This document shows positions 1,924 through 63,276 of a stretch of 64,000 bases of DNA, in pieces. How positions within the stretch are numbered: position 1 is the stretch's first letter; each line of letters starts with the position of its first letter. Both the position numbers and the translations under genes were made by a program. The notes under the pieces are model-generated. The model made no database searches and had not been told where the DNA came from. It worked only from the letters and a program-made list of their open reading frames with translations. Origin of the DNA: Phycomyces blakesleeanus NRRL 1555(-) (taxonomy: Eukaryota > Mucoromycota > Mucoromycetes > Mucorales > Phycomycetaceae); contig NW_017265171.1 of assembly GCF_001638985.1 (NCBI RefSeq), forward strand, positions 124,001 through 188,000. The letters run 5' to 3'.

Positions 1924-4009
1924 ATGTCGCCAGCTTCGAGTGACTCATCGCCCACATTCAATCCAACTCTTCAACGTTCACGCATGACAAAATCAAAAGC
2001 AACTTCCTCAACTACTGCAATCCAACCACTAGAGATCACAACAACTGCTGTAGTGATGAGTGATGCCATGCGTAAGAATACAGATACATGTCCTGCAGAT
2101 CTTCTACCTTTACCAGGTACCGAAGAATGTACAAAAAAAGACGAGGGCGATCGTCATAGAGAAGGGTACGGCTGGAAACAGCCTGTGCATCACCACACAC
2201 ATCATCACTCCATAAAGTCACCCAATACTCACACTGGAGAACGTCTCAAGACAAGAAGCCATCCTATCGTCAACCTCCCAACCTCTCCAAATATATCCCC
2301 TTTAAATTGTAGTAGAGTTGTCACACCTCTTACAAGTAATACCGAACCTGTGTTCAGTGTACTTCCTCCGCCTGCACTAAAAACAACTTCTGATGCCATG
2401 ACAGCACTTCAGGATGCAGCCAAAGGTTAGAAATATAGTTATGCAAAAAAAAAACATAGACACACAACAGCAACCACAGCAACAATATTTGGGGGGTTTT
2501 TTTTGTTTTGTTTTGTTTTTCTGTTTTCACTCAATTACCAAGGTTTGTTTTAGCTACGAAAAAGAAAAAGATTACCATTCCGTTTACGAACACATCCAAT
2601 AGTCTGGCCGAGCTATTTGAATCTTCATTTTTCTCAGCTGTCTTGTTGGTCCAATGGTCCAATGTGGTCGGGCCCAAAACCGAAAAGGTTTGGTCAGCCG
2701 AGGAAATGGACGAAAGACTAGAAAAGACGATCGGACGGCAGATATTAAATGGAGAGATGGGCAGAAACTTGAATCAAGATGAAGTCGAGGCTAAGTGGGT
2801 TGTTCTTCATCGACAGGCCATTGTCTGTACTGGGTTTTTGTACAATGATCAAATAGTTGGATCATTGTGTGGGCTTGTTTTGGTGGTTCCGACAAGATAT
2901 CTACGTAACTTCTCCCAATATTTTGGTGTATTACAAGAGCGGGTGCCTATTGAACTTGTAAAACCGCTAGTTCAGTTAAGAAAGGCTTATAAACGACACC
3001 CTGGAATGGTAGGCAGACATATGCTTAAATATTATAATACCAAATAGATTTTAGCTCACCAACACATCATACCGGTAGACTTGGGCAACAGCATTAGACT
3101 ATTTCACATGGCGTCGGCTGATTCCATTTGTACGGTCTATTATGAACCTTGAATCAGTTTCTTTACCGACAGAATGCATAAAGGTAAATTTTTAGTAAAA
3201 ATGACAACTTGGTAAATAAGTTATGCTTAAATACATAGTATGGTATAGATTAGCCACACAATACTTAATAACGAGTCTCGTCAAATGCTCGATTCCCCAT
3301 TTATTGCAAAGTAAATAAAGGTATTTATATATTGGATGGTAATTAACTAACACATGATATTTTATTAGAGTCATTACTTCACATCTGCAAACAGGCGGAT
3401 CAACAGTGCTGATAGGAAACACTCTGACTACAATGAACATGGTAAATAATAGGCCAATATGCATTAATATAATGACATGAATTTACTGATAATCATATCA
3501 ATTCATGATATTATATATACCCACGTACATCAGGTCATAAATACTCTTGCTCTATTCTTGTCATCCGAGGAAAGAAGCCGATCAAGTCATGCTCGTAAAA
3601 ACCATCCTTATATGGCAGATCTGTATCTTCAAGGTCTATTGATAGAGGTACTCATTTTTAAATATATATATATACATCTTTAAACTCTTAATCCACCAGA
3701 ACAAAAACAAAGAAAATGGAAGAAAGAAATAGATCTTGTATCTGAAACTATAACTTCAAAGGACATGGAAGATACCAATACAAAATTAGAAACCAAAGTC
3801 CTTCAATCATCCCTGCCAACCACTCTCGTAGACATGACCCGCCTAGTTGTAAAGCAGACTCCAATGTTTCCCTCGTACAATCAACATCAGAATCAATACT
3901 TGGCTTATATAAACTCCAAGCTTGATGAGGAATTATGTATATTTGCTTCCGGCCAAACCCGCTCAAGTGCTCCCAGTGCAGATTCAGGTTGGAAGTAAGG
4001 TCTATATAA

Positions 4010-4045
<36 letters not shown>

Positions 4046-4573
4046 CAATAAGTTGTAAAGATAACGATAACAAAAAAAAACAAAGATCTATCGGCGCTTA
4101 ACTTTTTGTATTCCTTTGTCATCTTATAGGCGACACAATATATTTAATCGTACAGAAGCAATAGCACCTTTAGTGCAGACATTGCTTGACGAGACACGGA
4201 AGGTACCTACTCGAATGCGAGAGGCATATATCCAACAATGGCGCCACCTGCTTATTCGGAAAGCATTAGCGCTTATAAAATGGGTAGAAGAAGAAGCGTA
4301 AGTATATATATATGACAGATATTCTGTAAAAAGGCGTGTGTATATTGAATTACTTATTTTGATTATTTATATTCTTAAAGGCGTTGTTTTCCTTTGGCCC
4401 AGTCAAATTCTGGTGGATCAAGCGATGCACCGGTGACTAAGGATATTGTAACTCATTTAATGGATGCTTTAGAATTAAACAACTGGACGGATTTCTCTAT
4501 CATATTAACGCAAGCCGAGAAATTGAAGAAAGGAATGGTCATGTTCTTGAGTACTTATTCAAAACGACTCTAG
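1924..4573 (+). CDS. C9orf72: C9orf72 homologue (longin/DENN-type protein)
   Basis: Modelled exons are 1924-2425, 2554-3008, 3079-3183, 3249-3310, 3369-3441, 3534-3647, ~3723-3994, 4130-4297 and 4381-4573. They give about 647 residues, against 481 in human C9orf72. Residues 1-167 are a Ser/Thr/Pro-rich extension absent from the human protein. Residue ~193 onward is colinear with C9orf72: FFSAVLLVQWSNVVGPK matches the longin start, followed by QILNGEMGRN, LIPFVRSIMNLESVSLPTE, ITSHLQTGGSTVLIG, NTLALFLSSEERSRSS, LYLQGLLIE, LPTTLVDM and RKALALIKWVEEEA. In animals C9orf72 pairs with SMCR8 and WDR41 to control Rab/Arf GTPases and autophagy; that role here is inference. The colinearity over nine exons makes a chance match unlikely. 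The weakest point is the acceptor of exon 7 (3699, 3712 or 3722). The start is the first ATG of the long open exon 1. Confidence 0.88.
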
Positions 4574-4995: not shown

Positions 4996-7257
4996 TTATG
5001 GTGTAACCTGTGTAGGTGTGACAGAAGCAGCCAAGAGAGGTGCTCTGAGGTAAAAGTTTACTCCAAGTGCAGTAATCATCAAGACACAAAGAACTACAGG
5101 CCCGTAGATGTCATCATATCTCAGGCTGGTATTTCCTGTTCTCATCTGCCATGCTCTTAACTGGAATCTAACAAGAGCATATCTAAAGAAATAAACAAAA
5201 ATAAAGCCATCGAAAATTAAAATTTTCATTTTCATTTTCATTTTCATTTTCATTTTCATTTACAATGCCAGCCATAGTGTTACTTACATAGACATAAAAG
5301 AAGAGATAATGATAAAGAAAGCTCCGATGATACGAGAGACCGAATCTCCGTAGTTTAAGAGATTGAGCGACACTGTGAGAAGCAAGGCACAGAACTGCAA
5401 CCATGAAATGAATGTGCGCTCGTTTGCAAAGAATGCTTTTGGGTCAATCTTCTTCAGAGGTGCGCGTCGTTGAACAGCAATAGGTAAGATCCCTACAGGT
5501 TGGCCGCTCTTGTCTCGACTCGAAGTTTGTTTCTTGTCAAAGTTTGGTAGACTGCCGCTCCAGAATCTTGTAAACGCATCCCGTTTATCCTTTGGTGCCT
5601 CGGATAGGTTATAGAATGCATGCTCAGGTTGATCATTTGTTAATTGAATGGAAACATGAGGTGCTGATCTGGACACTGTAAGCGGAAGAACTTGTTGATA
5701 ATTGACGTCCACTATAGAGCGCCGGTGACGACCATTAAAGAGTGGCTTGAAGCTCATAGAACGCGATAGCCCAACGTCGGCAACAGGTGTTTTGCGAATA
5801 TCGATATTGAGTTCGCTCAGCCACCATGGCACTACAGGTACTCTGTCCTTGAATAGTTGTGATGCACCGTGGAGATATTTAGAGAAACGAGGGACTTCGT
5901 GTACAAGATGACTAGTGACCAGCTCAGTTAGCCAAGCAGGGGTTTCCTGTCCAAGATGACTTTGAATCTTTGTCTCAAGAATAGCATATGGGAATCTAAG
6001 AATGTCAGAATCTTTCACATTGCGAAAGGGATATTGGATGCCAACATCACCACGTCTCCACATATCTCCTTCAGGCTGCTGTCTCCGGACTCCATCCAAA
6101 CCATCTTCCCGTACAAATGTCATGTTATTATCCAGACTAACTCGAACTCTCTGATCACCTGGAAGCTGAAAAGCAGTTCGGTTATAGAATACCCGACACA
6201 TTGGTTGTAGTTGACGGTTCCGTAAAGAATCCTGGACTCCCTTTGCCACAAAGTGATTTTCTTCAATTTTGGCTTCATCCATCTTTCCCTTTAAGCGCAA
6301 GTCCGAAGCATATGTGTCGGCTGTGTAACTTCCTGTCATATACGCATCGATGTATTTCTCATCAAGTCTGAATCGATCCTTAACAGAATGGCCATTAAGC
6401 CAGGGCGCATGGTGTGTTTTGCGCTCCACATACACACTATTATTGTCTTTATCTGTGCTATCTCCATACCAGCGAAATCGGATAGCCTCAGCGCCCTCGA
6501 TCCGTTCCAGTCGTTCAGAATACAAATCAAATGATGCGTTGTCAAAATATACACTCGAGATGGCCGCATCTCCGTCTTCGTAGGTCTTTTTTTGATTGAA
6601 TACATGTACAGGAAGATGCATCATAATAATTGACTTGACTTCTGTAATATAATCCGGATGGATCCAGTACTTTGCCGTCTCGCGCTCAAAGGCTGTTTGA
6701 TCTCCTCCTTGACTATAAGCATTTGTGGCCCGAGGCTGGCCTCGAAGACGACAGAGATCGTGGATATTAGATATTCGAACAATAAGGGCATCAAATCTTT
6801 GCTGGTCAAGTGGCCAAGTCTCGAGCATTTGGCCGTAGAATCTGGAACGAAGATCCAATTTGGTCCAACGATCATGTTTCTTTACAATCTTTTCGAATCC
6901 AGTATAATTGAGCTGATGGAATTTTGATAAATCATTGACGGCAAATAAGATCTCTGCTAACTCGTCAGCCGCAAGTTCATAGGACTGGGTATTGATCTTT
7001 TCAGACTTCATTAGTTCCTGGATCGTGCATTCACTTTGTTCTATACGTTTTTGGATGCCCTCCAATTTTTCATTAACAAAGTTAAAAACTTTGATGAGCT
7101 CGCGCTGGAGAAATTCTACAAATTCACGTTCATCACGTTCACGCCATCCTTGCTCGAGTTGACGGCGTTTGAGTTCAACTTTTAGTTCATTGTATTGCAA
7201 GTAAGAATAGCGCCATGGTTCATGGATTTTTGCTGCGAGTTCTACACCAAATTTCAT
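4996..7257 (-). CDS. VTC4: Vacuolar transporter chaperone 4 (polyphosphate polymerase)
   Basis: Two exons, 7257-5288 and 5182-4996, give about 718 residues, close to yeast Vtc4 (721). The order is typical: an SPX domain (residues 1-~160, starting MKFGVELAAKIHEPWRY), a central polyphosphate-polymerase tunnel domain (~195-500), and a C-terminal DUF202 membrane region. Tunnel residues are visible: Arg260 and Arg262 in RFRWYG, Glu278/Lys280 in VERK, Arg370/Arg372 in RVRVS, and Glu428/Lys430 in ETK. The enzyme makes inorganic polyphosphate from ATP while moving it into the vacuole or acidocalcisome, and SPX senses inositol pyrophosphate. The second exon carries the last membrane segments (RFQLRAWQMRTGN onward). 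The single intron contains a TTTTCA hexamer array. Key residues are intact, so the protein is probably active. Confidence 0.95.
5222..5262. repeat. TTTTCA hexamer microsatellite in VTC4 intron
   Basis: About seven tandem TTTTCA units on the plus strand, lying wholly within the single VTC4 intron (5183-5287). Confidence 0.9.
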
Positions 7258-8576
7258 CGGTCGTTATTTGGTAATATATGAAGTTTTTCTTCTTTTAAAA
7301 GAAATGTAGTATATGTCTGTGTCGTCTTGTCAAACTTGTTGCCGTTACTGCTTTTTTTATATATATAAAAAAGAAAGCAAAATAAAATAAATAAAGAGGC
7401 AGAGAGAAGGCTCTGATTGTAAGAGTACGTCAGTGAGATCCCTGTGGTATGTATGCAGTCTGTGAATTTGACAGAATATCAATAAATTATATTTATTTAA
7501 TTCTTTAGTAATGGATAAGAGGAGAAGATACTTACATTTCAAAGGTATTATATCGATACAAGGTAAGAAATAGAAGCAAGTATTCTTCTTCTTCTTTGTT
7601 GTCTTTTTTTTTGTTTTCTCTTGGGTTACTTATATCGTTGGTAATATTACTTTTTTTTTTCTGTTAAGGCGGTTGATATAACACAAAAGAAGAAGAGTAA
7701 AGAGATGATAAGAGATATCGAATTGAAAGAACTTGCATATACGCATTTTCAAAATATAATAGCGAAGAACTAACTCACCAAATGTTTCCAATAGAACCAA
7801 ACTTCCGAGGATTAAATTTTACAAGTGTGAATATATATATATATATCTATGTACGTGTGTATGTATTTGGTCTTTCCATTCTCTCTGATCTAACTGGTTC
7901 AACTACTGTTGTTACTATTGTGATTAATATTATTATTCTACGTAAAAGTTAGAGGTCACTTGGCGTTATAGACATCGCAAATAGACAAAATAATATGCTT
8001 ATGGTGATCTTAATAGATAATGTTGCTGTTTGTTCTGCAAGTAAACAATAGTCTTGTTATTTTTAACTAATACTTATATCTATAGTTACGTTTTGTATTG
8101 TATTGTAGTAGGCCAAGTTCATATCATAAACATAAAGTAGTATACATTATGTATATATAAGGCTATAAACAAGATAATATAATATAATATAGCCCTAGGT
8201 AAAACACTTGGTCCTGAATAGAATGTGTTAAACTACGAATAACACCCGATTTTCCGAACCTCTCGTTAATCCACTTACACTCTCTATTTTAAAAACAATA
8301 GTTACTCTTATAGAAATAAAAGCGTTTCTTTGTAACCCAAGTGAAAATCATAAATATCCTTCTGTTGTGCTCAACATACGCAAAGCATCCAGTACTTTAC
8401 GTTGTATTATTTTATATAAATAAACGCACACGCGTATATAAAAGAACGGCAATGGAGAATGAACTAAAGGAAAATAATAATAATAATAATAATAATAATA
8501 GTAGTAGTAAGAAGTGGTAAAAAATAGGATTTCTCCCGACAAAAGGTGTTAGGAGAAAGGGGGGAGGAGGGGGGGA
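7258..8576. other. VTC4 upstream region / spacer
   Basis: AT-rich spacer of 1.3 kb holding the VTC4 promoter (minus strand) and the 3' flank of the next minus-strand gene. There are short (TA)n tracts near 7831 and a (TAA)n microsatellite at about 8474-8500. No protein-like open frame was seen. Confidence 0.55.
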
Positions 8577-11932: not shown

Positions 11933-14900
11933 TCAATAATGTCTCTTTGCACCCACAAAGACAAGAGTGGGCTGTTGTTCGACTGTAGTTTGTCGTACTT
12001 GCTGATCTAGAGCATTGTCTAATGTAACCACTACGCCAACAGCAAGCAACTCGACCGGAACCTCTTTTTCTGTGCCTTGCTGCTTTGCTATCACCTTTAG
12101 ACGAGGGAGTCTGACCTTTCCTGCTACGAGAGGATAACACGTGTATTGATACGAGGCCCGCGACAGTGGCAAAACACGACCTTTTAACTGCTTATAGCCC
12201 GAGAACACAAACGCATCGCTCAACTCTATCGATGCCGTGTACTCAGCAAGGTTAATTGTGGGGTTGTGAATCGTGTAGGTTAGCGTGAACGGCTCTCCCA
12301 TATAAAGCTCGGAAGGAATATCTATATAGATTTTTGGTTAGAAAGATATAAAAATAAAAGCCCTCTATTATTGTAAATATTAATTGATTTGTATTTACCA
12401 GCAATCACCACAAGGCTAAGTTGCTGGAATTCAAGAGCTGGAGCTTTGAGCACTGTCTTGGAATAAGCGCCCTCTTGACCATGCCTGTGAATATCCAGAA
12501 ATATTAGAAATAAGAATATGTGCATATATATATATATATATGTCATTTCATTGTAATAATTTAATTATTACAATTCAATGATCTTCACGTTGTCATAATT
12601 TCTAACCTCTTCCATTGTACCACGATATTCCCGACAGGCACAGAAGGCATAGCTTCTGTCAGATCCATGGTTGACAATCTAAAAAGATAGTTTGCATTGT
12701 ATACATGGCTAGTTTTCCACACTATAATGTTTGTCAGTCCACAGATTGCTTTAATGTCCTATATTAATCTTGCCTTGGTTTTTGAAATTGTCCATTTTAG
12801 ATAAAAGCTTGAGAAAAGTGTAAGGATGTTCAAACGCCTAAATAATATAATTTAATACATGTTATCAATCACACATACAAACGAATTACCTCTTGTTCTA
12901 GTCTAACGCTCTCGATATCTAAATTCCATGTAGAGCAGCACTGAATTGCAGCAACCATGAGCCATTTTTCTGTTCTCTTCAGGTCAAATGGCACCGTCTT
13001 TCCTTGGTCCTCTCCTTGGGCACACAACTCGAATGTAGTCTCAAATGGACTGACAAATGGAATTGTAACTGATTCACTTTTTTCGACCTTTGGAACATGT
13101 GCCTTGCCACTGGCACTTGATAACACATATTCTGCCTGTCACAGATGGCACGTTAATTGAAATGAACACTGTCACATTCCAATTATATGCTCGTACCTTC
13201 AAGTTTACCAACCGTGGGCCTACACTACCGGTTCCGTGAATATAAACAACAGTCGACACTGACTGTCCAGGCTCAATAACCCCAATCACAAATGTACGAG
13301 CAGATTCTAAAGATTTATCGCCTGCTTCTTTAAACCAAGCATAATCCCCGGCTAATTATTATGATTATATTAAATTTAATTAGTTGTATGCAATATATTT
13401 CTGGCTTATCAAGTAAAGACTAACTAATTTATTTACCTTGTCCCTCCGCATTTTTAATCTCCATGCACAGTGTCACATCAATGCGCTCTGTTTCTTCACT
13501 AGTCACTGTCACACACATCTCAAAATCTTCGTCCAATAATGCAGGCGAAAATTGATGGATGGACAATTGAATCCGAGGCGGCCTTTGTGTAATCCTGATT
13601 CACGATTTTTTAATAAAGTTACATACCAGCTATAATACTTACTTTATAGCACTAAGCTCACCACGACCACTGATGAATCTGAATTTTGGACGACCACTGG
13701 GATCTGTAACAGCATAATAAAAGATATACATAAATTACCTGATGATATTAACCAATAATATGTATGTATACCTCCTGAAGGTTCAAGCCATTTTCTTCGA
13801 GTCACTGTCTGATCATCCGATAATTTATCAAAGGAATAGCTCAAGGCAACATTCCATTGAGGTGAGATTAGATCGAGACAGACACCAACAATCTAAAAAT
13901 ATATACATGATAAGTTGGTACTCAAGTACTATTCTACATTTTACTATAACTTCTTCAAGTTTTACCTTTATACCATCACAGTCTTTGGATATAATTTGCC
14001 CTTGGAATACGCGAGTTTGGTGTTCAGTCACTCTTAGATCAACTTTCTTGGTAAACCAATCCACATAATCCCCAGTTGTTGCCTTGGTCATGTCTTTGCT
14101 AAAATCAATAAGATCTAATTTCTTCATTTCCTCATCTAAGCCTGCATCCTCGAGATAACAGTTGTATTGTGGTTCACTGAACAAGACACGCATAGCATTG
14201 AATCTGAAAGGTAGGACTGGTGAATTTTTATCTGTCGAAAGACTGATTTGGTAAAGCTCGGGGGTATCTACAAAACTCGTTTGATTAAGGAACTGAACAG
14301 AGCATTTTAAGAATGAATTGATTTGGTCCATGGCAATGGTAAGTGGTGCGTGTTTGATAGTATTCGATGCTTCATTGTGATATAAGACATCAAAAAGCTC
14401 TCTTTGGATATCAGCGCGCTTCTGTTTAGCCATCGGAAGTTCTTCTGCCATTAGTTCTATCAGACACTCGACTGCGCGTTCCCAAGAACCGAGTTCCTTT
14501 GCACAGCGCAGTGACCATCTCAGAATAGAAGTAAGAACCATATGCCAGTTCTCTTTGCGATATGTTTTTCCAATCCGTTCAAAGAACTTGAGTGCCATCT
14601 CAAATTTTCCTGTCTCATAATAAGTTCCGGCAATTTCGGCAGCGAGATAAAGCGTCATACGACCATTGCGATATTTTTTAAATTGCTCGTAACTCTTGGT
14701 GAGTAACTCAATTGTCAGACTCGAATGATCCACCTGGCGTTCTTTACTCAATAGAACCTCCAGTTGGCTGGGTGCCACAGATTCCTTATTTGCTGCTGCT
14801 GCTTTTGCTGCCTCGGACCGTTCGATATCCAAAAATCGTCTTCGTCGTTCCGCACAACACATTGCTGCCAAGTGGTAATAAAAGCCTGGGTGCTGAATAA

Positions 14901-16924
14901 TCGCACCCGGATTACAGCCAACAACCTGGGAATTAGAGCTCAGATTATTATTTGATCCACCTAAAAGTGGACTTCCGGGTACATTAGCGGTTCCATTGTT
15001 TGTCAAGTAAGCAGTTGGAAGAGGAATCTTAAATCCTGCTTGAATAGCAGAATCAATTACATCCGCAAAGATTCGATACCTTATAATTAAGCTAGGTTAA
15101 TTATTTTCTTTTTTTTTATGTGCAAATCTTAATTGCTTACTGCTTAGAGAGCCATTCCCAGTATTCGAACGACTGTTCCCCCATACCCCATGCACTGGAA
15201 TACGTTTGGAACAAATGGAGATGACCATTCAATTGTGAAAAAGCAGCAGTGTGATCGTTTAAAAATAAGTGGAATCTACATATCTGCGTAAAATTCAATT
15301 ACACACAGCTTTAATAGATCAAGCAGTAAAATGCTTTATTTTATTTCCTTTTCATTATTATTATTATTATTACCTTAATATTGATACAATCTGCCAATGC
15401 ACGGGCTTCAGTCCAACGCTTCCCGCGTGCAGGAAGACTTACCAAGCCTTGTGTGACGGATGAGGTTGGAGCAAGAACATCCCCCAACAATCCATAAGCT
15501 ACAACACATGTCCTTCATACATTTTCACTCATAAGCTATATGTACTTTTCATTTCTTTTCCTTACTTCCTTATTCAAAGCTAGAAAATTACTTACTTTAA
15601 AGCTGCTTCAATGTCTTGTTTAAGCTCTTGGAAAAAAGCAATCTTCAAATCATAGCGTAATTGCCATCCTTGAGAAGACAATGGTTGAGGCTCATTAGAT
15701 GTTAAGTCTGCCATAGAAGGACGAGCAGAAGAAGCAGGTGAGGGCAGTTTAGATTTCTTCTTGCGTAACTTCTTAATGACATTGCTGTAGTACTGAAGAG
15801 CAGATTCATAAAGACATCGATAAAGGCTAAATATATCTGTTGTTTTCAGTGACCACATTGAACTACCAATGGTTCTCTATTCATTTTACCATACGCTCCA
15901 TCTCTTGATTACTTACGTGTTTACAAACTCCTGTAAATCATGATGACTACCAGGTGCAACAGTGAAGAAAGAATTTTTTGCATCCAAACCAGATTGCTTC
16001 CTGATTAAATTCAAACGTTCTTCCACACTCGGATCTTCTGTTTAAACAATAGAGAGTTTACTTCTCTATCTTTTTTTTAAAAGTATTTATTGCTCTTACC
16101 AGTATGGCGGTTTTTGAGAAGGATTACAGCGGAAAACTTGATACCCTTATCTTGAAAGTACTTTCTGCATACATACGAGTGTATTTATATGCACACACTC
16201 TTTTGTTTATCCACAGGATAATAGTATCATTACCTCTTATCATTGATTTCCTGGGCAAGTGCAACATCATTTTCGCGCTCTGTAGGATCCATCATTACAT
16301 GTGCCCCAAGTGGCCCTGTTTCTCTAACGGGCTTGGACCCCTGGCCAGGCTCACTTGACCAGTCCCACAACTCGTAAAATCCAACTATTACACTCGGTGT
16401 TTCGAGGTACTTCGTTATCCACAAAGGACTCATAATTCCATCTGGGTAAAGTGGTGACTGGGGTGTAAGGGGTGACAGTGGAGAGTGTACAGAAGACGAC
16501 GGTGTAGGCAAAGTATAATCCTTTTTATTGACCACAAAGCGTAAATATAAGTACAAAGGAAATAAATAATCTATACCTTGCTGATCGAAAGAACTCTAAA
16601 TGGAGGAATTCCTTGGGCTCCATTCGCAGAATTCTGATGAAGATATCGAGTAGCTTCGTAGAGTGTGAAGTCGTGTTTGTTGTGGAGAAGGGAATGGAGC
16701 GTGCTAGCTAGGCTGGATCGTAAGTTCAATGCATTATTTCCCGGGGTTTGTCGGCCTGATGATGGTCGAGTTTGGGGAGAGCTTGAAATAACGGCGACTG
16801 ACTCTTCAGAGTCTTTTTGGGTTGGTATTTTTTCATTCTCTGTAGAGGTCTGATCAGCCGATAGGCCATAAACAGCCAGTACAGGTACTGGATGAAGCAG
16901 ATATTCAGCTGGGTATGTGTTCAT
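11933..16924 (-). CDS. TRAPPC11: TRAPP complex subunit 11 (foie gras + gryzun)
   Basis: Seventeen exons can be joined with consistent phases: 16924-16577, 16520-16234, 16164-16100, 16037-15917, 15826-15596, 15512-15374, 15283-15141, 15079-13966, 13892-13772, 13703-13643, 13594-13437, 13351-13197, 13135-12890, 12837-12774, 12721-12607, 12484-12399 and 12321-11933. The product is about 1280 residues (human 1133). It aligns along its length with TRAPPC11: the N-terminal strand PAEYLLHPVPVLAVYGL, then VIVGFYELWDW, LKIAFFQELKQDIEAALK, HPGFYYHLAAMCCAERR (foie gras, from ~508), and the C-terminal gryzun part SDAFVFSGYKQLKGRVLP and YPLVAGKVRLP. TRAPPC11 belongs to TRAPP III, a Rab1 exchange factor in ER-Golgi traffic and autophagy. 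Intron 14 (12773-12722) appears to be GC-AG. The gene shares a 227-bp divergent promoter with PDCD5. Confidence 0.92.
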
Positions 16925-39329: not shown

Positions 39330-40761
39330 GTTTTTCTCTCTCTACATTAATTAATCGATTAATTAATTAAAGAAAATAAATAAATAAGCATATGGTATAT
39401 AGATATAGTAATATTAATATTAATATTAGTACTTAATGGTCAATAAATATTATCATTTTCTTCTTACAATTAATAATCAATCTGCTATACATATATCTCT
39501 TGCTGTTCAATCACATATATATATATATATATTATACTATGTTTGCTTGTGTATACATAGATGCCAAAAACAATTTTCACAGTACGTGTGTCCACGCTGC
39601 AATCTAAAATACTGCTCACTTGGATGCTACAAGGATCTTGGACATGCCGATTGTACGGAATCCTTTTATCGTGACAGCGTCACTGCAGAGATCCAATCTC
39701 GAAATGACACTGAGCAGTCGAAACAAAAGATGCTCCAATTACTACAAAGATTCGAAGAAGAAAACAAGAATAGTCTTGACGGCGAGGATGAAGACGATGA
39801 AGATGAAGATGAAGATAAAGACGATCTTGCTCAGCGACTGGGTGATCTCAATATTGAGACAGCAGACGCTGGTCAGCTGTGGAACAAACTGTCGAGCCAA
39901 GAAAGAGACGATTTCGAAATGATGCTAAAACAACTCGAAAATGAAGACACCGCATGGAGCAGTCTTGAATTGAGGCCCTATGAACCCTGGTGGGAGATCA
40001 ATCAATCACTCGTCCAAGAGATCGGTCAGGACAACGTCGCCCAAGAGAACACTAGTACTAAAAGTAAGCAGTCCGGTGCACCAGAAGTACCAAAGGTACC
40101 AAGCTATAGCCGTCTGATCGGTTCGGACAAAGCTCCAAATCCGGCAGTCATGTGGACAATGCTACACACAGGAATGACTTACTGTTATCTGATGCGTCAC
40201 TGCATGGGGGACCTAAATGATGGAAATGTGCTGGACACCCTGGACACATTGGAACACCTGTCCAGATCTGTCTTGTTTTCGACTGATCCTCCTCCATTTA
40301 GCCGTGAGATGGATGTCGTGGTTGATTTGGTCGAACAGATCCTGTCCCTTGATTCGAGAGACAGCAAGAAGAACAAAAAAGATCCCAAGAGACGATCTCA
40401 ATTGATGGTCCTGTGTCTCAGTGATGGTCTGAGATTGTTGGAAGCAAATCACATGGTCCGCGCTCTCGGTGGTCTCTGGCAATTTCTCAAGGATCTTTCG
40501 TCGATCAAAAGCATGGATAAGATCCAGAAAAGAAGGGTTGCATTAGCAGTCCGGAAGGTTTACTTTCACATTGCAGCTACTGACTACATAATCACTCGGG
40601 ATTCCCAGTCTGGGCGAATCACACTGCTCAAACAGGCTCTCCTGACAGCCCAGGAGAAGATCAGATCTGACGATCGAGCATTTGAAAGAGAATATAGCGC
40701 AGCAATTGCAGCAAGGCAACACAGCACAGCCACAAAACAAGTCAAGATTATTGAACTATAA
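39183..40761 (+). CDS. ZNHIT2: HIT-type zinc-finger protein, ZNHIT2-like
   Basis: Exons 39183-39256 and 39561-40761 give 424 residues. The intron (304 nt, long for this region) splits the HIT finger and carries a (TAA)n array. The finger spans residues 23-56: Cys23/Cys26, Cys35/Cys38, Cys43/Cys47, His53/Cys56 (PPCQICQKQF, YVCPRCNLKYCSLGC, HADC), the full zf-HIT set. An acidic block follows (DGEDEDDEDEDEDKDD), then a helical domain with LWNKLSSQERDDFEMML and RPYEPWWE, as in ZNHIT2. ZNHIT2 links RUVBL1/2 (R2TP) to assembly of U5 snRNP and other complexes. The first exon is short (24 codons), and its ATG gives the sequence needed for the first Cys pair. Confidence 0.9.
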
Positions 40762-58418: not shown

Positions 58419-58807
58419 CAACAGAAGCGCATACTTAAAAACCACACCTAGAAATAAACACATATAAAGGACTTTATTATGGCGGAGAAGTAGTCAAAGC
58501 AGTGAGATCTCCGGGCGTTTTACCGAAATCGAGATCACAAACATGTAGGAGGATCCATTCGCCCGAGGAACATACAAATCCTATCCACATCCAAACAATT
58601 ATAAAAAAACAATAAAATATTTATTTTTTTTCTTAAGACTTAACATCAACCTCTTCTCTTCTTCTACTTCACTGTATTTTTAATATTATTTTTTTGTTTG
58701 TTTTTTTTGGGGGGCATTAAAATCAGTGTCGTACTTCTTTACTTTATTTTTTCATTGTATTATCTGGATCCCCATCCAAATCTTACACCAAACGAATCTT
58801 CTGCACC

Positions 58808-61800
58808 ATGGAAATGACATCTCTTCAGGATGTTCCTGTGGAGCAGATCCATCATGAAACCCATCACCAACACCGCAACAACAGCACACATTCGGAAGAA
58901 ACCACTGTCGAATACGAAACCGAAAAAGAGTATCACACCGAATTCCATTCATCTTCTGCCATTGGCGGTTATGGTGAACGAGACGGCAATGCTGTTAATA
59001 TCGAAGACGCAATGTCAAATTATGAAGAACTCCGTCGTGAACTGACTCAACAATCTCGCCGCAAGTCCGTGAGCGCTGCCGAATTGGGCGCATCTGACGA
59101 TTTCGATCTGACCAGCTTCCTCACCGAGCAACACGAACAAGGCGCAGCTGCCGGATTCCACCCCAAGCACATGGGTGTCGTCTGGAAGGACCTTGTCGTT
59201 CAGGGTCTTGGTGCAGACGCCAAGACTATCAGCACCAATTACACCTGGATCGCTTCTACCCTCCAGTTCTGGAAGTGGGGTCGCAAATCTGGCCACGATT
59301 TTACAATCCTCAAGGGTAACGACGGTTTCTGCAAGGACGGTGAGATGCTTCTCGTCCTCGGTCGTCCAGGCGCTGGCTGTACCACTCTTTTGCGCATCAT
59401 TGCCAACATGCGTGCTTCTTACACAAAGATCGAAGGCGAGGTTGCCTATGGTGGCATCGAAGCCACAGAATTCTCAAAGTACTTCCGCGGCGAGGTGTGC
59501 TATAACGAAGAAGAAGATCTCCATTACCCAACCCTGACTACCGGACAGACCCTACGCTTTGCTCTCAAGAACAAGACCCCAGGAAAGCGTCTGCCCAACG
59601 AATCCCGCAACGAGTTCATCAACAAGATTCTCTACATGCTTGGAAACATGCTCGGTCTCACAAAGCAAATGAACACCATGGTCGGCAACGCCTTTGTCCG
59701 TGGTCTGTCTGGTGGTGAGCGCAAGCGTCTATCAATTGCCGAACAGATGACAACCCGCAGTTCAATCAACTGCTGGGATTGTTCTACCCGTGGTCTCGAT
59801 GCCTCCTCTGCTCTTGATTATGTCCGTTCTCTGCGTATCATGACTGACATCACCCACAAGACTACCATTTCTACTCTCTACCAGGCCTCCGATAGTATAT
59901 TTAACCTCTTTGACAAGGTCATGGTTCTCGACGAAGGTCGCTGCATCTACTTTGGCCCAACCGAAACCGCAAAGAGCTTCTTCCAGGACATGGGTTTCCA
60001 CTGTCCTAGCCGCAAGTCTACCCCTGATTTCTTGACCGGTCTCTGTAACGCAAACGAGCGTGAGTTCCGTGCCGGATTCGAGGGCAAAACCCCCATCAAC
60101 TCTGTTCAGTTCGAAAAGGCCTACAAGGAATCTGATGTCTACCGCTCCATGATGCAAGAGCGCGATGAATACGAAGCCAAGATCAACCAGGATCGTCCCG
60201 CCGAGCAGTTCAGACAGGCTATGCTGGATGCTCACCAGAAGCATGCCTCCAAGCGCTCTCCTTTCACAGCAACCTACTACGCTCAAGTCAAATCTCTCAC
60301 CGTCCGCCAATTCCAGCTCATCATGGGCGACAAGGGTGCTCTGATATCTCGTTATGGTGGTGTTGTCATCAAGGGTCTCATCATGGCCTCTGTGTTCTAC
60401 ATGATGCCTACCGATGGTTCCGGTGCTTTCTCTCGTGGTGGTGCTTTCTTGTTTTCTTTGCTCTTCAATGCTCTTATTGCCCAGTCTGAACTGTCTGCTT
60501 TCATGCAAGGCCGTCGTGTACTCGAGAAGCACAAGGGTTTTGCTCTTTACCACCCCTCTGCTTTTTACATCTCTCAAGTCATTGTCGATATTCCTCTGGC
60601 CATTGTCCAGGTCTTGATCTTTGAATTATGTGTTTACTTTATGATGGGTCTTGTCCTTGATGCTGGAAAGGTAAATTTACAAATACTCATACAAATTTTT
60701 ATTTTGCAAAATCAACTAATTTATCATATAACTTTTTTTTTTCTATAAACACATTTTATTTAATATAGTTCTTTACTTTCTTTGTCATCTTGGTGGTTAC
60801 AAACATCTGTATGAACGGATTTTTCCGTTTCTGGGGTGCCGTGTCTCCTAATTTCTTCACTGCCTCCCAGCTGTCTAGTATCTTGCTCATCGCCTGTCTC
60901 GTGTATTGCGGTTACCAGATTCCTTACAAGCTCATGCACCCATGGCTTTTCTGGATCTACTGGATCAACCCTCTTGCCTATGGTTACAAGGCCTTGATTT
61001 CTAACGAGTTGACCGGTATGCAGTTCTCTTGCGAGGGTCCCAACTCGGTTCCCTATGGCCCTAGTTACACTGATCAGGCTTACAAGAGCTGTGTTCTTCC
61101 CGGTTCCAAGCCTGGTGCTTCCTCTGTTTTGGGTGATGATTATCTTTCTCTTTCGTATGGCTATGAAACCTGGCAACGATGGATCGACTTTGTCGCCGTC
61201 CTTTTGTTCTTCTTCTTCTTCACCATCCTCACCGCTTTGGCCATGGAGTATGTCGATCTCCAGAAGGAAGGTTCAATTACCAAGGTCTACAAGAAAGGCA
61301 GAGCTCCAAAGGAAATCAGCGAAGAAGAGCTCCTTAAGCAGACCAACACTATCAATGACAATGCTATGGAAGCCGTCTCGGATGGCACTACCTTTTCCTG
61401 GCACCACATGGATTACACCGTTCCTATCAAGGGTGGTGAACTCAAGCTTTTGAACAACATTGGCGGTATTGTCAAGCCCGGAAACCTCACTGCCCTTATG
61501 GGTTCATCTGGTGCAGGCAAGACTACTCTTCTTGATGTCCTTTCTATGCGCAAGACTATTGGCAAAATCGAAGGCCGTATCTACATGAATGGTGAGCCTC
61601 TCGACATCGACTTTGAACGTATCACTGGTTACTGCGAGCAGATGGATGTTCACAACCCTAATGCTACCGTCCGCGAGGCCCTCAAGTTCTCTGCCTATTT
61701 GCGCCAGGAGGCCAGTGTGCCCAAGGAGGAGAAGGATGCCTATGTCGAGCAGATTATCCAGTTGATGGAGATGGACAGAATTGCCGACGCTTTGGTTGGT

Positions 61801-63276
61801 GATCTCGAGACTGGTATTGGTATTTCGGTCGAAGAGCGCAAGCGCCTGACTATTGCTACTGAGTTGGTTGGCAAGCCCAAACTTCTTTTCCTTGATGAGC
61901 CTACTTCTGGTCTTGACGCCCAGAGTTCTTACAACATTGTCCGTTTCATCCGTAAGCTTGCTGATGCTGGCTGGCCCGTCTTGTGTACTATCCATCAGCC
62001 TTCTGCCACACTGTTTGAACACTTTGACCATCTTCTGTTGCTTGTCCGTGGAGGAAGAACTGCCTACTTTGGAGAGATCGGCAAGGATTCTCGTACTATG
62101 ATTGAATATTTCCAGAGCAACGGTGGACCCCAGTGCTCGCCCTCTGCAAACCCCGCTGAGTACATTCTGGAGTGTGTTGGTGCCGGTACTGCAGGAAAGG
62201 CCACTCGTGACTGGGCCGATGTCTGGGCTGGATCCAACGAGGCCAAGGCTTTGGAAGCCGAGCTTGAGAAGATTCATGGAAGCATCAATCCCAACCATTC
62301 TCGCAAGGCAACTACCTATTCTCTCTCGTTCTGGCAACAGTTCTGGTTTGTCTACAAGCGTATGAATGTGTCCTGGTGGCGTTCTCCTAATTACAACATG
62401 GGTCGGTTCTTCAATGTGTGCTTTATTGGTCTCATCTCTGGTTTCTCTTTCTGGAAGCTTGGAAACTCGCCTGCTGATATGCAGAACCGAATGTTCTCAG
62501 TCTTCACTACTCTCTTAATGAGTAATGCACTTATTATTCTCGCGCAGCCTCGCTTTATGCAGGAGCGCATGTGGTTCCGCCGTGAACATGCTGCAAAGTA
62601 TTATGGCTGGGCTCCATTTGCACTTTCTTGTATTTTTGTCGAAATTCCATATATCATTTTCCTGGCAACGATCTTCCTGTTCTGTTTCTACTGGACCGCC
62701 GGTCTTGCTACTGATTCTGACCGCATCGGATTCTTCTATGTTCACTTTATTGTGTTTTTGCTGTACTCTGTCTCGCTCGGTTTCACAATTGCTGCATTCT
62801 CAAACTCTCCTCCCATGGCTGCCGTCATTAACCCGTTCTTTACATCGATTCTTATTCTGTTTGCCGGTATTATGCAACCCCCTAGCCAGATGCCCTACTT
62901 TTGGAGATCTTGGATGTACTGGCTTGATCCGTACCACTATGTGATTGAGGGTCTTGTTGTCAACGCTCTGGACAGTGTACCTGTTGTCTGCGGTTCTGAC
63001 GACTTTATCAAGGTCAATGCCCCCCCTGGTCAGACCTGCGGTAGTTACTTTTCCGAATACTTTGCCTCTGGTGGACTTGGATACATTGGAAACCCGGGTG
63101 CAACCGATTCCTGTGACTATTGCCAGTACACTGTCGGCAATGACTTTTACGAGACTCGCATTGGCTGGTCGTTTGACAATAGATGGCGCGATTTTGGTAT
63201 CCTGTGTGCCTATTATATCTTTAACATCGTAGCCTTTATGTTCTTTGTCTTCTTGTTCCGCAAGGCCAAGCGATAA
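58808..63276 (+). CDS. Pleiotropic drug resistance (PDR/ABCG) full transporter
   Basis: Two exons, 58808-60670 and 60769-63276, give 1456 residues in the order NBD1-TMD1-NBD2-TMD2. NBD1: Walker A GRPGAGCTT from residue 185 with Cys in place of Lys, intact signature LSGGERKR at ~300, and a non-standard Walker B region (NCWDCSTRGLD). NBD2: canonical Walker A GSSGAGKTT from ~866, degenerate signature SVEERKRLT near 975, and Walker B LLFLDEPTSGLD. This asymmetry is normal for fungal PDR pumps: one composite site hydrolyses ATP. TMD features such as FWISPLAYG-type INPLAYGYKALISNE and the NPP-type YWLDPYHYVIEGL are present. It should sit in the plasma membrane and export hydrophobic drugs or lipids. 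Coding sequence is C/G-ending in codon choice, suggesting good expression. The N-terminus is Glu/His-rich. Confidence 0.95.

Follow-up and report, generated by a model that had tools for sequence, protein, structure and literature searches.

Introduction

C9orf72 is a human gene of amyotrophic lateral sclerosis and dementia. The normal role of its product is disputed (Rab versus ARF GTPases, guanine nucleotide exchange factor (GEF) versus GTPase-activating protein (GAP), lysosome versus autophagy), and the protein was originally proposed to be a Rab GEF. Among solved structures, the nearest complexes are C9orf72-SMCR8 and FLCN-FNIP, which two reports (PMC8213707, PMC12803157) describe as GAPs. 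In the present study, a gene at positions 1924-4573 (+) of a 64,000-nucleotide stretch of the Phycomyces blakesleeanus NRRL 1555(-) genome (contig NW_017265171.1, positions 124,001 to 188,000; hereafter "the window") was compared with these systems. The comparisons support its assignment as the Phycomyces C9orf72 orthologue, with homology over the full length of the protein, and a gene for the partner SMCR8 was located in the same genome.

Identity of the gene

The spliced protein matched the C9orf72-like family of Pfam (PF15019) with an E-value (E) of 1.8e-45 and a score of 155.9 bits, well above the curated cut-off of 27. In a sequence search of the PDB, the significant matches were to human C9orf72 only; residues 194-626 were colinear with human residues 25-462 (E 8.9e-28). 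FLCN and FNIP chains were absent from the PDB matches up to E 10. The fold was examined in a predicted model of a Mucor relative (P0002), which served as a stand-in for the window protein. This model has longin topology, with most blocks at a predicted local distance difference test score (pLDDT) of 79-91 and a DENN half of lower confidence than the longin part, and it aligns with human C9orf72 chains over 151-584. The initial annotation had proposed a C9orf72 orthologue colinear with the human protein from its longin start to its C-terminal helices; the profile match, the confinement of significant PDB matches to human C9orf72 and the fold of the relative bear this out. The longin topology and the alignment with C9orf72 come from a model of low confidence, made for the Mucor relative.

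Gene structure

Nine exons were joined in phase to yield a 634-residue protein with a single stop codon, at its end. All eight introns, which range from 58 to 135 nucleotides, begin with GT and end with AG. Exon 1 (1924..2425, +) is open from the ATG at 1924 and encodes the fungal N-terminal extension, comprising 167 residues, with one further base that opens the following codon; Phycomyces nitens P0001 begins at a nearly identical start. Exon 2 (2554..3008, +) encodes the bulk of the longin (uDENN) domain, including Trp202 (equivalent to human Trp33) and the sequence LNGEM. Exons 3 (3079..3183, +), 4 (3249..3310, +), 5 (3369..3441, +) and 6 (3534..3647, +) were placed using the splice model and an alignment to Mucor, and exon 7 (3762..3994, +) using these and the match to human C9orf72. 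Judging from the Mucor model, exon 8 (4130..4297, +) would encode C-terminal DENN helices, and exon 9 (4381..4573, +) C-terminal helices followed by the stop codon. The coordinates, strand, exon count and 167-residue first exon given in the initial annotation all agree with this spliced reading.

Intron 6 was revised to 3648..3761 (+), because relatives lack 13 residues that an exon 7 starting at 3723 would add and because an exon 7 that starts at 3762 lifts the human C9orf72 score from 88 to 100.4 bits. The relatives were those whose models cover this stretch, in an alignment of 17 rows in which the window protein stood beside 16 homologues taken from the 30 of the first protein search. The start at 3723 was rejected on these grounds, and an alternative intron 6 with its donor at 3634 and acceptor at 3699 was ruled out by the same relatives and score comparison.

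Against Mucor circinelloides P0003, the numbers of identical/aligned residues in exons 1 to 9 were 64/127, 95/149, 20/35, 17/21, 21/25, 33/38, 33/77, 37/57 and 29/54, respectively. The complete protein scored 626 bits against P0003, compared to 25.4 bits for the best of 20 shuffles; the similarity over all nine exons is not due to chance. The predicted exon joins are supported by reading phase, splice sites and relatives. One C9orf72 locus was detected in a six-frame search of the 53.5-Mb genome (60 contigs), in which the best candidates only were considered; PMC3570213 describes C9orf72 as single-copy in most species.

SMCR8, FLCN and FNIP in the same genome

When the genome was searched with the Folliculin profile PF11704, one gene was found; it is FLCN, as it matches human folliculin (2e-35). 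With FNIP_N, two matches were obtained on contig C36, at a locus apart from that of FLCN. The absence of SMCR8, first suggested by the finding of FLCN alone with PF11704, was overturned when residues 1-263 of human SMCR8 were used as the query, which detected a third locus at C14:1034489-1034635 (E 1.6e-7, 45% identity over 49 residues). This match holds one TAG, located at its first codon, which was taken as an intron end. The exons at this locus read YRDFVLISEFSELEGPLPL, THHLTLFDIHARGYVHPVALSYISRD and HVIFSLMTGRPVVIIGH, and the gene was joined roughly, not spliced exactly. Folliculin_C (PF16692) had no match anywhere, and the controls likewise had none, rendering that profile uninformative.

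The roughly joined C14 pieces were then used as a query, and 38 fungal SMCR8 proteins were retrieved (8000 candidates scored), all of which carry the precomputed domain PF27109. For the full-length P. nitens protein, human SMCR8 was the sole PDB match up to E 10, and it covered longin and DENN parts. A profile built from 16 of the 38 proteins likewise matched only human SMCR8 in the PDB (6.3e-50). The arginine finger (FDI[NH]ARGY or FDVNARGY) was present in 36 of the 38, and the models of the other two lack that stretch; the corresponding sequence in the Phycomyces genome is LFDIHARGYVHP. Human SMCR8 passes the PF11704 cut-off. Two of the 38 fungal proteins were scanned with this profile: P0031 had no match up to E 1, and P0032 scored 12.4 bits against a cut-off of 23.3. 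Because both fall below the cut-off and the C14 locus was missed, surveys that employ PF11704 could call SMCR8 absent from fungi.

In a small tree of SMCR8 and FLCN, human SMCR8 fell on the side of the fungal SMCR8 proteins, apart from FLCN, and the split had a bootstrap value of 100. The tree was unrooted and was made from the first part of the sequences only, with two FLCN and seven of the 38 fungal SMCR8 proteins, and its inner branch was at the length limit; its support is consequently weak. By sequence comparison, the genome is shown to hold an SMCR8 gene distinct from FLCN. Fungal SMCR8 is not new to databases, since one record (Apophysomyces) already bears the name smcr8. At the level of genera, 20 of the 24 with SMCR8 are also among the 32 fungal genera with C9orf72, and four appeared in the SMCR8 list only.

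Inspection of the SMCR8 region (C14:1030500-1038500, - strand) by eye revealed long glutamine and glutamate/serine runs in the gene. Just upstream, on the same strand, are frames with a likely TBC (Rab-GAP) sequence and a DP1/Yop1-like sequence, also noted by eye.

Residues at the ARF contact

As described in PMC8213707, ARF1 GAP activity is nearly lost in W33G/D34K human C9orf72 and is reduced in I71R. In the window protein, Trp33 is kept as Trp202, while Asp34 is replaced by Ser203 and Ile71 by Met236. The surrounding motif, W.N..GP, was found in 51 of 55 homologues (WSN in 49, WDN in one and WNN in one; four had no match). The residue following LNGE in the same 55 proteins was M in 31, V in 10, I in seven and L in three, with no match in four. 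Since the Trp is retained and the positions of Asp34 and Ile71 are changed, the wall of the ARF pocket looks kept yet not identical.

The N-terminal extension

Residue 194 of the window protein is the first to align, opposite residue 25 of human C9orf72, consistent with the earlier statement that the extension is unlike the animal protein. Three features were found in it. Motif 1 (residues 24-44, SKATSSTTAIQPLEITTTAVV; 1993..2055, +) has the loose form L[EQ][IV]TT.A, which occurs in 33 of the 55 homologues; there were no occurrences of it after the longin start (a recognised start being present in 51 of the 55) and none in the 38 SMCR8 proteins. A His-rich stretch (residues 89-99; 2188..2220, +) has a like stretch in 30 of 55, according to a loose pattern. 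Motif 2 (residues 156-167, SDAMTALQDAAK; 2389..2424, +) has the loose form S[ED]A..AL, found in 40 of 55; its region corresponds to a helix (H120-133), of low confidence, in the Mucor P0002 model.

These motifs are common to many homologues of Mucorales and Umbelopsis. Among the 22 homologues lacking motif 1 are the Mortierella group, two animals, fragments, proteins with short N-termini, and P0025, P0030 and P0081. These last three are from Mucorales and have over 160 residues ahead of the longin start (P0081 lacks both motifs); the motifs are therefore common, not universal. Fainter likenesses were noted by eye in the Mortierella group (LQLQVNTK and GRKALLALQSVAAEE) and in Endogone (TTTTTAVNPLEVITKTVV). 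The extension probably forms a largely disordered arm with a regulatory or docking role.

The search for WDR41

A WDR41 query of the genome returned 45 WD40-type matches, and eight loci were aligned in detail. One stretch of the best locus was compared with the PDB; its nearest matches were designed propellers, a WD-40 repeat protein and FBXW7, and WDR41 was not among the best 60 of its 525 matches. A WDR41 orthologue was thus not found in the genome, although its absence is unproven. Among the partners named in the initial annotation, SMCR8, FLCN and FNIP were located and WDR41 was not. WDR41 may lie outside the fungal complex.

Proposed function and alternatives

The whole is best explained, with fairly good probability, if the C9orf72 orthologue is the non-catalytic half of a C9orf72-SMCR8 ARF GAP with a membrane role. 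C9orf72 and SMCR8 would form a heterodimer in which an ARF GTPase lies cradled between the two longin domains. The arginine finger would come from SMCR8, and the opposite wall of the pocket from C9orf72, including its counterpart of human Trp33. Together the two proteins would turn ARF off at endosomal or vacuolar membranes, to which they would be recruited without WDR41.

Several observations weigh against this explanation. In 49 of the 51 motif-bearing homologues, Ser stands in place of human Asp34, and the ARF contact may differ for this reason. For 12 of the 32 fungal genera with C9orf72, the SMCR8 search listed no protein, perhaps because only 8000 candidates were scored, and WDR41 was undetected among the 45 matches described above. 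As for the Mucor P0002 model, its overall confidence is low (mean pLDDT 58.2, predicted template-modelling score 0.42), its full-length fits to C9orf72 have high root-mean-square deviations (11.5-17.5), and the top row of its structure comparison was a lone archaeal longin domain.

The best-surviving alternative, in which the protein is a Rab GEF and not part of a GAP, recalls the original proposal for C9orf72; it is unlikely given that an SMCR8 with an arginine finger is present and that GAP activity is what has been ascribed to the nearest solved complexes, C9orf72-SMCR8 and FLCN-FNIP. Slightly less probable still is that C9orf72 acts mainly with FLCN or alone, fungal SMCR8 having another job. 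The presence of both FLCN and FNIP genes and the 12 genera without an SMCR8 row would fit this arrangement; yet C9orf72 is present in 20 of the 24 SMCR8 genera, and the usual partner of FLCN, FNIP, is itself encoded in the Phycomyces genome. That a fungal FNIP/Lst4-type DENN protein was mislabelled as C9orf72 is scarcely credible, as the Pfam match and the significant PDB matches are to C9orf72 only and the FNIP_N match stands separately on contig C36. A decayed, unexpressed copy is equally implausible in light of nine open exons, GT-AG splice sites and strong conservation with the Mucor relative.

With respect to recruitment of the putative ARF GAP pair, a more speculative proposal may be made: that Mucoromycota have a two-part C9orf72-SMCR8 GAP without WDR41, in which the N-terminal arm, with its conserved motifs (STTAIQxLEITTTAVV, SEAxxALQDAA), replaces the membrane/vacuole recruitment by WDR41 seen in animals. 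This proposal is doubtful.

Distribution and significance

Two protein searches (30 and 45 rows, 20 in common) furnished the 55 distinct homologues. Both scored only the candidates with the most shared words (7999 and 8000), and other fungal phyla may therefore hold C9orf72. The named homologues represent 32 fungal genera (counted by hand) and two animals; the organism is not given in seven rows. We take all 32 genera to be Mucoromycota in the broad sense (Mucorales, Umbelopsis, Mortierella relatives, Endogone and Jimgerdemannia). The closest protein is that of P. nitens, with 92% identity over 55% of the query; the model in that record is short.

The novelty implied by the initial annotation is smaller than claimed, because C9ORF72 in Rhizopus was published in 2012 (Zhang 2012, PMC3521125) and five of the 30 records from the first search are already called C9orf72-like. 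Fungal copies are already known, and the Phycomyces gene adds one further species. In a search of the open-access literature, judged by titles and the openings of abstracts, only Zhang 2012 and Levine 2013 were found to bear on fungal C9orf72 or SMCR8. What deserves most attention is the SMCR8 gene in the same genome, the failure to detect WDR41 and the motifs of the fungal extension.

Levine 2013 (PMC3570213) dates the duplication that gave FLCN and SMCR8 to an early animal or a pre-animal ancestor. Finding SMCR8 alongside FLCN in a fungal genome favours the older option, a duplication before the split of fungi and animals. If the more speculative two-part GAP without WDR41 is real, both the SMCR8/FLCN split and the pairing of C9orf72 with SMCR8 would be older than that parting, and WDR41 would have been added later or lost in fungi. 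A filamentous fungus having C9orf72 and SMCR8, no neurons and no detected WDR41 would allow the core pair to be deleted and studied alone; it would offer a simple setting for studying the original function of this human disease gene and its partner.

Neighbouring genes in the window

Convergent with the C9orf72 gene is a reading frame at 5284-7263 (-), with a C-terminal piece near 4996-5180; it has a VTC domain (7e-74), SPX and DUF202, and is a vacuolar transporter chaperone, probably the polyphosphate polymerase. At 13831-15096 (-), a Foie-gras_1 domain was identified (4.5e-29); this domain occurs in the TRAPP subunit TRAPPC11, and the gene would encode a further membrane-traffic protein. A HIT zinc finger protein (1.6e-6) is located at 39430-40758 (+). 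Two long open frames at 58721-63273 (+) jointly resemble one PDR/CDR-type ABC transporter.

Comparison with known systems

The C9ORF72 proteins of Rhizopus and other Mucoromycota belong to the same family and lineage as the Phycomyces copy, in which nothing fundamentally different was found. FLCN-FNIP (Lst7-Lst4), a RagC/D GAP, is likewise a longin-DENN heterodimer, and both of its genes were matched in the Phycomyces genome; these are separate loci, and neither protein is among the PDB sequence matches of C9orf72 or SMCR8 up to E 10. Human SMCR8 is similar to the fungal proteins in the longin and DENN parts matched by the P. nitens protein, in the match of the fungal profile, and in the arginine finger of 36 of 38. 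It differs in that the two scanned fungal proteins miss the PF11704 cut-off, and all 38 rows carry PF27109. Human C9orf72 (PDB 6lt0, 6v4u, 7mge and 7o2w; PF15019) is colinear with the window protein over human residues 25-462 of 481, where the match ends, and shares with it the Trp33 equivalent and LNGE. In the fungal protein, Asp34 is changed to Ser and Ile71 to Met, and some 170 more residues, with their fungal motifs, precede the longin domain.
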